Below, one piece after another: positions 35,516 to 38,965 of a DNA stretch of 64,000 bases. A program made the position numbers and the translations under genes. Numbering within the stretch: the stretch's first letter is position 1; every line of letters begins with the position of its first letter. This stretch comes from Carnobacterium sp. CP1 (GTDB taxonomy: Bacteria > Bacillota > Bacilli > Lactobacillales > Carnobacteriaceae), in contig NZ_CP010796.1 in NCBI RefSeq assembly GCF_001483965.1, positions 372,001-436,000 of the forward strand, read 5' to 3'. Below the pieces are notes generated by a model. That model had not been told where the DNA came from and ran no database searches. It saw nothing but the letters and a program-made list of their open reading frames with translations.

Positions 35516-36081
35516 TTGTCATCATATAATAGAAGAGATTGGTTTACGATACCCAACATATTATCGTATATTCGTATATTATTGGTTCCGGTATTTATTT
35601 TTATTTACTTGAATGCAACTGAAACAAAGCATTTTCAATATGCTGCTTTAATTGTTGTTTTTTCTGGTTTGACTGATTTATTAGATGGATGGATCGCTCG
35701 AAAATACAACCAAATTACGGAGATTGGAAAGTTGTTAGATCCAATAGCTGATAAAATTACACAAGCAGCGATTATATTTTGTCTGATATTTCGTTATGAT
35801 TACATGTGGTTGCTTGTTTTATTGTTTGTAGTGAAAGAATTAACCATGGGGATATGCAATGTAGTCCTTTTCAAAAAGGAAAGAAACTAGATGGAGCAAA
35901 GTGGTTTGGAAAAATTTCTACTGCTGTTTTTTATGGGTGTATGACCGGTTTAGTCGCATTTCCGATGATCTCTGATGGGACAGCAACACTTTTAATGAGT
36001 GTAACAGGATTTTTTTTATTTTTATCTTTTATTCTGTACGCAAAAGTTTTTACAGAAATGCTTCGATCGGTAAAAAAGTAA
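35516..36081 (+). pseudogene. CDP-alcohol phosphatidyltransferase (PgsA-like), frameshifted
   Basis: The first frame (TTG 35516, AGGAGG upstream) encodes the whole catalytic motif Asp-x2-Asp-Gly-x2-Ala-Arg-x8-Gly-x3-Asp-x3-Asp plus membrane helices, then stops at 35890. The other frame continues as Lys-Lys-Leu-Asp-Gly-Ala-Lys-Trp-Phe-Gly-Lys-Ile-Ser-Thr-Ala and further helices to 36081, exactly the expected C-terminus. The frames join near AAAAAGGAAAG (35872-35882), so one base appears missing in an A/G run. The intact enzyme (about 188 residues) would make phosphatidylglycerol phosphate or a related lipid. It could be a real null, a sequencing error or a recoding site. Confidence 0.8.
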
Positions 36082-36128
36082 ATCCGTTGTTCTACAAGGA
36101 ACAGTCTATCAGACTGTATTCGCTGCTT

Positions 36129-36170
36129 ATTACTTAAAGTACTGTTAAGTAATAATAACAATTTTTGTTT
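36129..36170 (+). terminator. Terminator after phosphatidyltransferase remnant
   Basis: ATTACTTAA and TTAAGTAAT form a nine-pair stem followed by AATAACAATTTTTG. A second small hairpin ACAGTCT/AGACTGT lies just before. Confidence 0.65.
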
Positions 36171-36195
36171 TTACTCTGTTAACCAATCAATTTAG

Positions 36196-36224
36196 TTGAT
36201 TAGTGTAAGGATTTACGATACACT
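36196..36224 (+). promoter_or_regulatory. Promoter of the FMN reductase gene
   Basis: TTGATT, 17 bases, TACACT. An inverted repeat AATCAA/TTGATT (36185-36201) overlaps the -35 and could be an operator. Confidence 0.65.
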
Positions 36225-36305
36225 TACTTTATGTTAGCGATAAGATTTTGAAAAAGTTAACAGAATGCTGATTAAAATCAGAAAAAACCAAGGAGGAATA
36301 ATGAT

Positions 36306-36869
36306 ATGACAAAAATTGGTATTATCACCGGAAGCACACGTCCAGGGCGCAATAGTTTACAAGTGGCTCAATGGGTAAAAGAGCTTGCTGACAAACGCGG
36401 GGATGCGGCATATGAAGTAATTGATATTGCAGATTATCATTTGCCAATGTATGCAGAACCTATTTCTGCGGCTTATAGCCAAGACTATCAAACGCCTGAA
36501 GCTAAACCATGGTCAGCAAAAATCGCTGAAATGGATGGTTATGTATTTATTACACCTGAGTATAATCACGGAATGACTTCTGCCTTAAAAAACGCCATTG
36601 ACTATCTTTACCCAGAATGGAATAACAAAGCAGCTGGGATCGTCAGCTATGGTTCATCAGGCGGGGTTCGTGCTGCTGAGACATTACGTATTGTTCTTGC
36701 TGAATTGCAAGTAGCAGATGTACGTACGCATCCAGCAATGTCATTGTTTACTGATTTTGAAAATATGTCTGTTTTCAAACCAGCTGATTTGCATGCAGAA
36801 ACAGTTGGAGTTATGTTAGATCAAGTAATAGCTTGGTCCAACGCATTAAAAACAGTTCGAGAAAAATAA
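36306..36869 (+). CDS. NADPH-dependent FMN reductase family protein
   Basis: The 187-residue flavodoxin-fold enzyme has Gly-Ser-Thr-Arg-Pro-Gly-Arg-Asn-Ser at residues 9-17 (FMN phosphate loop), Thr-Pro-Glu-Tyr-Asn-His-Gly near 80, and Ser-Tyr-Gly-Ser-Ser-Gly-Gly near 118, typical of NADPH:FMN or azo/quinone reductases. It would reduce quinones, azo dyes or flavin in the cytosol. A MarR/esterase pair that resembles the quinone-stress genes of Bacillus lies downstream, beyond two RNAs. AGGAGG precedes ATG 36306. Confidence 0.88.
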   Translation: MTKIGIITGSTRPGRNSLQVAQWVKELADKRGDAAYEVIDIADYHLPMYAEPISAAYSQDYQTPEAKPWSAKIAEMDGYVFITPEYNHGMTSALKNAIDYLYPEWNNKAAGIVSYGSSGGVRAAETLRIVLAELQVADVRTHPAMSLFTDFENMSVFKPADLHAETVGVMLDQVIAWSNALKTVREK

Positions 36870-36896
36870 TTTTTTCATAACAAAGAAGCAAAAAAA

Positions 36897-36925
36897 TTGT
36901 ACTATAAAGAATTACTTGGTATTAT
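36897..36925 (+). promoter_or_regulatory. Promoter of structured RNA 1
   Basis: TTGTAC, 17 bases, TATTAT (with TATAAT overlapping three bases on). Confidence 0.6.
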
Positions 36926-36931
36926 AATAGT

Positions 36932-37289
36932 GAAGAGAAGGACAAGGTACAATGTCTTCTTTTCTAGAGTTGATTAAACTGACTCTAAGGTCAACAATGA
37001 AAATTGTTGTTGACTGAACCTTTGAGAATTCTATTTTAAGAAAAAAGTAAGCTTAAAGAGTAATAAAATAGAGTGATCGAAGGAAAACTTCATAGCGTGG
37101 CTAAGTTCCTGAAAAATGAACAAGTCAAGAAGAAGTAACTAAAACCCACATGAAAGAAACTAAAGTTCATGTGCCGAAAAGAACCAAGTTTTATTCTAGT
37201 GGGACTACTGCTAGAAACCAAGTAAAAAAATAGGAACTGGCTACAAAATGAAAGAAAGAGGGCTCAGCATTGATGAGCTCTCTTTTTTT
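36932..37289 (+). ncRNA. Large structured RNA 1, unknown class
   Basis: No ORF of note is present. Successive hairpins can be drawn: GAGAAGGACA/TGTCTTCTTTTC, AGAGT/ACTCT, GTCAACAA/TTGTTGAC, CACATGAA/TTCATGTG, and TTCTAG/CTAGAA. AACTTCATAGCGTGGC (37086) is followed by AAGTTCCT, which can pair with AGGAACT at 37232, closing a large domain. A nine-pair terminator stem GAGGGCTCA/TGAGCTCTC with seven T ends it. The second RNA shares the conserved strands in the same order. It is not RNase P, tmRNA, 6S or a T-box as far as I can see. Confidence 0.65.
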
Positions 37290-37320
37290 ACATAAAATCA
37301 TACCATTTAAGTCTCTTTTC

Positions 37321-37349
37321 TTGCGGTTAAAGCGGATACATACTATACT
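37321..37349 (+). promoter_or_regulatory. Promoter of structured RNA 2
   Basis: TTGCGG, 17 bases, TATACT; predicted start near 37356. Confidence 0.7.
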
Positions 37350-37355
37350 TACAGT

Positions 37356-37718
37356 GTAGAGATAGAGGAGAAATAAACCTCATCTTTACGTCAGAGAACG
37401 AGCGTCAGTTGTTCTCAGGTTAATAGTTTTTCACTATTAACCAGCAGATGATTCTAAAGGAGTAGCACTAAGTTTTTACATTAAGCTATTCATCTAGAAA
37501 GAATCATCGACCGATACAACTTCATAATGTGGCGCGGTTCCTTTCTAGGACAAAGTCAATAAAAGAAGTTTAAACACGCAGCATCTAAAGCAGAAAAGCG
37601 ATAGATAGCTTACTAGAATGGAATGAACCAACTGAAAAAGAGTTGGAGATAAACGACTAAGGAACTACGTTACAAAATGAAGCAGGGAGAGCCTAAAAAT
37701 TTGGGCTCTTCTTTTTTT
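37356..37718 (+). ncRNA. Large structured RNA 2, related to RNA 1
   Basis: The 5' half has hairpins GAGATAGAGG/CCTCATCTT, CAGAGAAC/GTTCTCAG, GGTTAATAGT/ACTATTAACC and GATGATTCT/AGAATCATC. AACTTCATAATGTGGC (37518) with GGTTCCT pairs with AAGGAACT (37659), as in RNA 1, followed by the shared TACAAAATGAA. A CCAACT/AGTTGG hairpin lies inside. It ends at AGAGCC/GGCTCT and seven T. Length matches RNA 1 within a few bases while hairpin sequences differ but pair, which argues for conserved structure. Confidence 0.65.
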
Positions 37719-37769
37719 GGATTTATAGCTCTTTTTAATAAGCAGACATACATAAAGTAAGCGAATGGA

Positions 37770-37818
37770 TTGACATGAAATAAGTTAAATGGTATATTTA
37801 TCTCGATAAAGAGATAAA
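37770..37818 (+). promoter_or_regulatory. Promoter and MarR-type operator
   Basis: TTGACA, 17 bases, TATATT (37793). An 8-bp inverted repeat TTTATCTC/GAGATAAA (37797-37818) overlaps the -10 end, and a further half-site TTCGAGATAAA lies at 37823. It fits autorepression by the following MarR gene. Confidence 0.75.
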
Positions 37819-37859
37819 CACGTTCGAGATAAAATGCATTTGTGAAAGGAAGTTCTTTA

Positions 37860-38297
37860 ATGGATAGACAAGATAGATCTTTAAAAGCATTGACGGTCTT
37901 ACTGCGCTCTTCTCAAAGTGTACAAGAAGTGATCAAAAAAGATATGATAAAGTATGGGGTAAATCCAACTGAATTTGCTGTACTTGAGCTCTTGTATCAT
38001 AAAGGGGAGCAACAAATTCAACACCTGGGTAAAAAGATATTATTAGCTAGCAGCAGCATCACATATGTTGTAGACAAATTAGAAAAGAAAGGGTATGTAG
38101 AAAGAAAACCGTCCCCAACGGATCGAAGAGTCATTCACGCTAATATCACAGAAAGCGGCAAAGCATTCATGGATAACGCTTTTCCAAAACATAAAGAATT
38201 GATTGGACAGGTTTTTGAAGAGTTATCAGAAGAAGAAATTGAAACAGCTATCGTTATCTTGAAAAAATTAGGGTTACATGCGGTGGAAATAAAGTAA
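37860..38297 (+). CDS. MarR family regulator (MhqR-like)
   Basis: ATG 37860 has AAAGGAAG seven bases upstream; GTG 37842 is in frame but unlikely. The 145-residue protein has a MarR winged helix (about 30-100): Phe-Ala-Val-Leu-Glu-Leu-Leu-Tyr, Ser-Ser-Ser-Ile-Thr-Tyr-Val-Val-Asp-Lys-Leu-Glu recognition helix, Asp-Arg-Arg-Val wing. Overall it resembles Bacillus MhqR, a repressor released by quinone stress, and the next gene is MhqD-like. No Cys is obvious, so sensing by oxidation is not supported here. Confidence 0.82.
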   Translation: MDRQDRSLKALTVLLRSSQSVQEVIKKDMIKYGVNPTEFAVLELLYHKGEQQIQHLGKKILLASSSITYVVDKLEKKGYVERKPSPTDRRVIHANITESGKAFMDNAFPKHKELIGQVFEELSEEEIETAIVILKKLGLHAVEIK

Positions 38298-38356
38298 ACG
38301 TTCTAACCAGGATGGTATTAATTTCATCTTGATATGCAGAAGCGAGGAGGAAAAAA

Positions 38357-38965
38357 ATGATTCATTTATTTAAAAAAGGAATAAATCCTTCAAGCTCCAC
38401 ATTACTTTTATTGCACGGCACAGGTGGAGATGAAAAAGATTTATTGCCATTAGCACATGTGATCGATAAAGATGCTGCTATTTTAAGTGTACGAGGCAAT
38501 ATTTTGGAAAATGGTATGCCTCGGTTTTTTAAGCGATTAGCCGAAGGCGTCTTTGATGAAGAAAGTTTGAAAACAGAAACAGAAAACTTGTATCATTTTA
38601 TCAAAAAATCAGCTGAACAATATGGTTTTGATTCTACTAATGTAATTGCTTTAGGTTACTCAAATGGTGCAAATATTGCTGCTAGTTTATTGTACCATTA
38701 CCCAAATGTATTAAATGGAGCAATCTTGCATCATCCAATGGTTCCATTAAGGAATATTGAATTACCTGATTTAACGAACACGCCTATTTTTATTGGGGCT
38801 GGCATCAACGACCCTATATGTCCGGCTGAGGAAAGCAAAGAATTAAAAAATACGCTCGAAGCAGCAGGAGCTGAAGTGACTATTGAATGGGGCAATCAAG
38901 GCCATTCTCTAACTCAACTTGAAGTAACCGCAGCTGCTAATTGGTATCGTCGACAATTTTATTAA
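38357..38965 (+). CDS. Phospholipase/carboxylesterase family hydrolase (MhqD-like)
   Basis: The 202-residue alpha/beta hydrolase has Leu-Leu-His-Gly-Thr-Gly-Gly-Asp-Glu (about 19-27), nucleophile Ser in Gly-Tyr-Ser-Asn-Gly-Ala-Asn (about 98), Asp in Gly-Ile-Asn-Asp-Pro-Ile-Cys (about 153) and catalytic His in Gln-Gly-His-Ser-Leu (about 181). Homologues of MhqD take part in hydroquinone tolerance. It follows the MarR gene by 59 bases and has GCGAGGAGG, so it is probably in the same operon. Confidence 0.85.
   Translation: MIHLFKKGINPSSSTLLLLHGTGGDEKDLLPLAHVIDKDAAILSVRGNILENGMPRFFKRLAEGVFDEESLKTETENLYHFIKKSAEQYGFDSTNVIALGYSNGANIAASLLYHYPNVLNGAILHHPMVPLRNIELPDLTNTPIFIGAGINDPICPAEESKELKNTLEAAGAEVTIEWGNQGHSLTQLEVTAAANWYRRQFY

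Follow-up and report, generated by a model that had tools for sequence, protein, structure and literature searches.

A 64,000 nt stretch of Carnobacterium sp. CP1 DNA (the window) contains two tandem, related units that are best explained as belonging to a new structured RNA family of the Carnobacterium, Trichococcus, and Jeotgalibaca lineage; its members would be stand-alone and non-coding, act in trans, and be repressed by CcpA on preferred sugars. We put the probability of this reading at roughly 0.7. The family, its architecture, its covariation, and its cre-bearing promoter were computed; transcription, CcpA binding, and action in trans we infer.

Both units consist, from 5′ to 3′, of a 5′ hairpin, variable hairpins, a 3′ core, and an intrinsic terminator (Table 1). 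The initial annotation had described two structured units of about 360 nt, and their positions, shared strands, and strong folds are all borne out: relative to dinucleotide shuffles, the minimum free energies have z-scores of -7.07 (copy 1) and -6.94 (copy 2), with none of 100 shuffles for either copy reaching a value as low. A repeat search finds AACTTCATA..GTGGC..GTTCCT in both copies (37086-37110 and 37518-37542, 80% identical), as well as TACAAAATGAA (at 37242 and 37671). GTTCCT pairs with AGGAAC, as had been claimed, CTTCAT pairs with ATGAA(G), and GTGGC pairs with GCTAC in copy 1 or GTTAC in copy 2. The intrinsic terminators are likewise present, that of copy 2 in both the fold and a scan of the + strand (the only one of the two that the scan returned), and that of copy 1 in the fold, followed by a T run. 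The 'consensus promoter with a 17-base spacer' held up in its second half: the spacers are indeed 17 nt, but the -35 hexamers (TTGTAC in copy 1, TTGCGG in copy 2) each match the consensus at three of six positions, and neither promoter appears in the output of a promoter consensus scan. Their credibility comes from the homologous promoters, which share the same layout.

Table 1. Positions of the two RNA units and their parts in the window (1-based window coordinates).
Feature	Position	Strand	Basis
Copy 1 promoter, TTGTAC-17 nt-TATTAT	36897-36925	+	Direct reading; homologous promoters laid out alike
Copy 1 degenerate cre position TATAAAGAATTACT, -27 to -14, box lost	36903-36916	+	-5.5 bits, B. 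subtilis cre matrix
RNA copy 1, about 362 nt, start inferred	36930-37291	+	Fold; core model R1, 124.2 bits
Copy 1 5′ hairpin P0	36930-36965	+	Fold; pairing across 16 sequences
Copy 1 variable hairpins, three in predicted fold	36966-37083	+	Fold
Copy 1 conserved core: P1 CUUCAU/AUGAA, P2 GUGGC/GCUAC, P3 GUUCC/GGAAC, enclosing hairpins P4 and P5	37086-37253	+	Core model, covariation
Copy 1 intrinsic terminator	37253-37291	+	Fold, then T run
Copy 2 promoter, TTGCGG-17 nt-TATACT	37321-37349	+	Direct reading
Copy 2 predicted CcpA cre box TTAAAGCGGATACA, -27 to -14, within spacer	37327-37340	+	13.0 bits
RNA copy 2, about 365 nt, start inferred	37354-37718	+	Fold; core model R1, 97.3 bits
Copy 2 5′ hairpin P0	37354-37390	+	Fold; pairing across relatives
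Copy 2 conserved core, P2 = GUGGC/GUUAC	37518-37682	+	Core model, covariation
Copy 2 intrinsic terminator	37684-37718	+	Terminator scan (37684-37713) and fold

Relatives were sought with a pattern built from the core (TTCATNNNGTGGCNNNGTTCC), which gave candidates both in the window's family and among 395 Lactobacillales genomes, and with R1, a covariance model for the 3′ core, for which matches with an E value of 0.01 or better were counted. R1 matched 25 of the 395 genomes, or 23 after the removal of two whose hits of 27-28 bits overlap protein genes (G006 and G093), and a second covariance model (R2) returned the same 23 plus one false hit inside a protein gene (G328). The carriers comprise three of five genomes of the window's own genus, all six of Carnobacterium, 10 of 11 of Trichococcus, and four of six of Jeotgalibaca. 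Presence is patchy, with 9/18 genomes of the window's family and, once G328 is dropped, 15/76 genomes of the family of Trichococcus carrying the RNA. With its filters off, R1 scored nothing above 12.1 bits on the pgsA-like loci of five non-carriers (L095-L099). Across a sample of 398 Bacilli genomes, searched with stricter filters that can lose weak matches, only the window genome and one false locus (L084) were returned, and the phage and plasmid collections held no match to the window units. Several candidates were rejected as relatives: three pattern hits (L013, L028, and L029) that were judged by eye to be protein-coding, and four loci scoring 25-28 bits that lie within or across protein ORFs (L053 in G006, L054 in G093, L084 in G626, and L110 in G328).

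The Trichococcus loci are 85-93% identical to named Trichococcus records, some of which have the same cores. A scan of contigs from named genomes gave 16 loci, nine of which match the Trichococcus RNA by BLAST (eight in records named as Trichococcus, the ninth in one bearing the label Sedimentibacter sp. SX930); the remaining seven lack such a match and were dropped. The Sedimentibacter-labelled locus (L077) is Trichococcus-like, at 93% identity, and its assembly is probably mislabelled or contaminated.

The 16 transcripts that were folded range from 250 to 593 nt: 250-301 nt in Carnobacterium (n=6), 266-367 nt in the window's genus (n=4), 562-579 nt in Jeotgalibaca (n=3), and 591-593 nt in Trichococcus (n=3). 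Despite this range, all 16 keep the same layout of promoter, P0, core, and terminator, in which P0 sits at the predicted +1, a variable middle follows, and the terminator lies directly behind the 3′ core. The core is a long helix composed of P1 (CUUCAU/AUGAAG), P2 (GUGGC/GCUAC), and P3 (GUUCC/GGAAC), with short internal loops between them, and it closes around two hairpins. In an alignment of 22 distinct core sequences fitted to the covariance model, 97.2% of cells are paired (27-47% in slid controls) and seven of 18 pairs have changed on both sides; on four of five measures, both-side changes among them, none of 500 shuffles scored as high, and on the fifth two did. An alignment of 15 sequences made with MAFFT, not fitted to the model, has 95.4% paired cells and five pairs changed on both sides, and is weaker on two measures, with both-side changes reached by 14 and pair types by 159 of 500 shuffles. 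P1 and P2 are nearly invariant, so that their support comes from conservation, and the covariation rests on P3 and P5, where the compensatory changes sit; P4 could not be aligned across lineages and was left out of the count. P0 is paired in 93.4% of cells over 16 sequences (14 distinct) from four genera, with little covariation (254/500 shuffles as high). The core is thus a conserved structured RNA with covariation beyond chance, weaker on the two measures of the unfitted alignment. The conserved structure that had initially been proposed from the two copies is thereby extended to homologues in four genera, whose core helices are kept with compensatory changes.

The units had also been said to belong to no recognized class, and we find the same: no Rfam 15 family reaches its gathering threshold in window positions 36000-38600. 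Hits within the units up to an E value of 5 are animal and plant microRNA models far below their cut-offs, all other hits lie outside the units, and one Trichococcus and one Jeotgalibaca relative have no Rfam match either. Given these results, the units are very unlikely to be a known RNA in diverged form, although RNase P type B, 6S, tmRNA, OLE, GOLLD, and ROOL are of the same order in size and helix number. RNase P type B (RF00011) has its one match in the genome elsewhere (C1:362940-363315, 334 bits), as does 6S RNA (RF00013; C1:180223-180410, 76 bits), and the window units match neither model. OLE, GOLLD, and ROOL resemble the units as large, highly structured bacterial non-coding RNAs (described as such in the cited part of PMC12286853), but the units lack an Rfam match, are chromosomal beside ordinary genes, and matched no phage record. 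In the literature searched (titles and abstract openings, sometimes the top of long lists), no description of this RNA was found. The window units and their relatives therefore appear, from sequence comparison, to form a structured RNA family absent from Rfam 15.

When the 23 promoters are aligned on the predicted start (four of them anchored by hand), a CG-centred palindrome appears at one fixed place, and the inferred start trinucleotide is GUG in 20, with AUG or ACG in the other three. Scored with a matrix made from 31 high-affinity Bacillus subtilis cre boxes (from the cited part of PMC3463425), 19 of the 23 have a predicted cre box of at least 8.4 bits at -27 to -14, between the -35 and -10 elements, a score that no more than 0.016% of 127,974 window positions attain; only about 1e-5 of these positions score as high as the box of copy 2. 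Among offsets from -60 to -14, none but -27 reaches even a mean of -8 bits. Counting the letters that agree with a cre consensus, which departs at a single position from the version printed in PMC3463425, gives a mean of 11.6 of 14 at the cre offset versus 7.8 at the next best. The nine promoters from Trichococcus are closely related and not independent, and the boxes of Jeotgalibaca, Carnobacterium, and Trichococcus have different letters that all fit cre. Four promoters are degenerate at this place: G009 (-0.7 bits), G011 (-3.9), window copy 1 (-5.5), and G008 (-10.4). Overlap of cre and promoter is thus found for window copy 2 and the family, and not for copy 1. CcpA itself (TIGR01481) scores over its cut-off in 22 of the 23 carriers, including the window genome, and in G380 the best match is below it. 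At promoter-overlapping cre boxes, CcpA is described as keeping RNA polymerase off the promoter, and a table lists the acoR and glpF boxes at -27 (both in the cited part of PMC3463425). The family promoters thus carry a predicted cre box through which CcpA may repress transcription.

The two window copies share 49% identity at aligned positions. Of the two, copy 1 has the more typical sequence (59-70% identical to relatives in the window's family) and copy 2 is diverged (53-56%); in a mostly unresolved tree of 22 cores, copy 2 is placed weakly beside Jeotgalibaca (support 75/82). A duplication, as suggested initially, is a plausible origin of the pair, since the window genome has two R1 matches and each of the other 22 carriers has one, but a recent origin of copy 2 from copy 1 is not established by the identity or the tree. 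Judged from their promoters, copy 2, which keeps the cre box, should be repressed by sugar, and copy 1, which has lost it, should be expressed more constitutively.

The genes that follow the RNA differ between carriers. Copy 1 in the window is followed by copy 2 and then by a MarR-type gene, and elsewhere the next gene encodes an MhqD-like esterase (G003), a 126 aa protein (G001), or a MarR-type protein (Carnobacterium G012), or belongs to an rRNA operon (Trichococcus G312, Jeotgalibaca G265 and G228); the MarR and esterase names rest on matches below curated cut-offs in the window and were given by eye in G003 and G012. Upstream, an FMN reductase gene is common to the window and Carnobacterium G012, and a family-65 glycoside hydrolase/phosphorylase gene is found in Trichococcus G312 and Jeotgalibaca G265, with a beta-phosphoglucomutase gene next in G265. 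A terminator at the end of each unit would also suit a cis-acting leader or attenuator controlling the gene behind it, but this variation in the following gene makes such a role unlikely, and the MarR-type gene of the window has a promoter-like site of its own (TTGACA-17-TATATT, 37770-37798).

No ORF is common across genera among the transcripts examined, which together with the differing neighbours also speaks against a messenger RNA. In favour of an RNA that encodes a small peptide, as a messenger or with a dual function, are an SD-like AAGAAGGA with an ATG behind it in P0 of seven of 10 Carnobacterium-type copies (a frame of 21 codons in copy 1), and a Trichococcus frame of 40-58 codons that begins at the same place in nine of 10 loci. 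We consider this reading improbable, because the P0 frame stops after 4 to 21 codons depending on the species (by eye) and copy 2 has no ATG there, while the Trichococcus frame shows no upstream SD, has a GTG start in one case, is shifted or cut in three of 10 loci (58, 40, and 18 codons), and was not found in the other genera. Moreover, six of the 16 transcripts have no ATG, GTG, or TTG frame of at least 15 codons. The differing neighbours and the lack of a cross-genus ORF argue instead for action in trans, and at the level of sequence the units look as a trans-acting sRNA should: they have their own promoter and terminator, no cross-genus ORF, and no conserved downstream gene.

Three further observations concern the surroundings of the units. 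Just behind the promoter-like site of the MarR-type and esterase genes lies an inverted repeat, TATCTCGA..TCGAGATA (37799-37831), which we take to resemble an MhqR operator, presumably fitting an MhqR/MhqD quinone-response pair; the esterase has a match to NF047577 that stays under the cut-off. A sub-threshold Rfam hit to Spy392987 (33.5 bits against a cut-off of 47) lies antisense to the start of the esterase gene (38373-38450, - strand), perhaps because that family overlaps a homologous coding region. The pgsA-like gene at 35516-36081 is split into two overlapping frames (124 aa, then 91 aa), where G003 and G001 have a single one of 188 and 185 aa; this is a frameshift, reflecting either a pseudogene or a sequencing error.

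In the mechanism that we favour, a sigma-A promoter would drive transcription from the conserved GUG. When a preferred sugar is present, CcpA with HPr-Ser-P would occupy the cre box, which sits between -35 and -10, and would hinder RNA polymerase, so that the RNA would be made as the sugar falls. Its two ends would be protected, by the 5′ hairpin P0 and by the 3′ terminator beside helix P1. The sequence-conserved P1-P3 helix could then display P4, P5, and single-stranded A-rich segments for a protein or target mRNAs to bind, and metabolism would thereby be adjusted once the transcriptional switch has taken place.

A different partner for the same core is conceivable, though we hold it to be distinctly less probable. 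The units would then be large structured RNAs of a new class, made on sugar exhaustion, that work mainly in the form of an RNA-protein particle or through global machinery (ribosome, RNA polymerase, or RNase) and not by mRNA pairing. The P1-P3 core would bind either a protein of its own or the apparatus of translation or transcription, and the window pair would have split into constitutive and CcpA-repressed forms. P1 and P2 are conserved in sequence as well as in pairing, which pairing alone would not need. In the one Trichococcus and both Jeotgalibaca loci that were examined, the RNA immediately precedes an rRNA operon: in G312 and G228 this is a 16S-23S-5S operon in the same direction, and in G265 it is followed by the start of a 16S gene (loci L056 6522, L057 6627, and L058 6739). 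CcpA control of a machinery-binding RNA also has a precedent in the 6S RNA of lactic acid bacteria (cited part of PMC8414754). Yet the RNA is not beside rRNA genes in Carnobacterium G012 or the window, no protein partner is known, and the patchy distribution within the window's family speaks against a core role.

For the preferred reading of stand-alone, trans-acting RNAs under CcpA, the nearest functional precedents are SR1, RosA, and the 6S RNA of lactic acid bacteria. RsaI of Staphylococcus aureus is a further CcpA-repressed sRNA, made when glucose is exhausted, and is shorter than the present units, with which it was compared by Rfam search only. SR1 and RosA of B. subtilis are CcpA-linked trans-acting sRNAs of 92-225 nt, stand-alone and with their own sigma-A promoter under carbon catabolite control (cited part of PMC8464778), features that are predicted for the present family. 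The same source places the SR1 cre about 260 bp upstream and describes a peptide encoded by SR1, whereas the predicted cre here lies inside the promoter spacer and no peptide is common across genera; Rfam searches, the sole sequence comparison made, showed no homology to SR1 or RosA. The 6S RNA is likewise structured and non-coding and occurs in Lactobacillales, where roughly a third of species have a cre box close to its promoter (cited part of PMC8414754). It belongs to another family of another length (its model has 187 positions), and 15 of the 18 genomes of the window's family, including that of the window, have it elsewhere. The cre of the Lactococcus 6S gene is placed upstream of the -35 (PMC8414754, same part), in contrast to the position between -35 and -10 in the present family.

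The family would thus be a structured RNA family new to Rfam 15, and its conserved, predicted cre box offers a physiological context, carbon catabolite control, of a kind that is usually missing for orphan RNAs. The tandem pair amounts to a natural experiment, with the predicted switch kept in one copy and the typical sequence in the other. If the core does bind the cellular machinery, carbon state would be relayed to that machinery through RNA.
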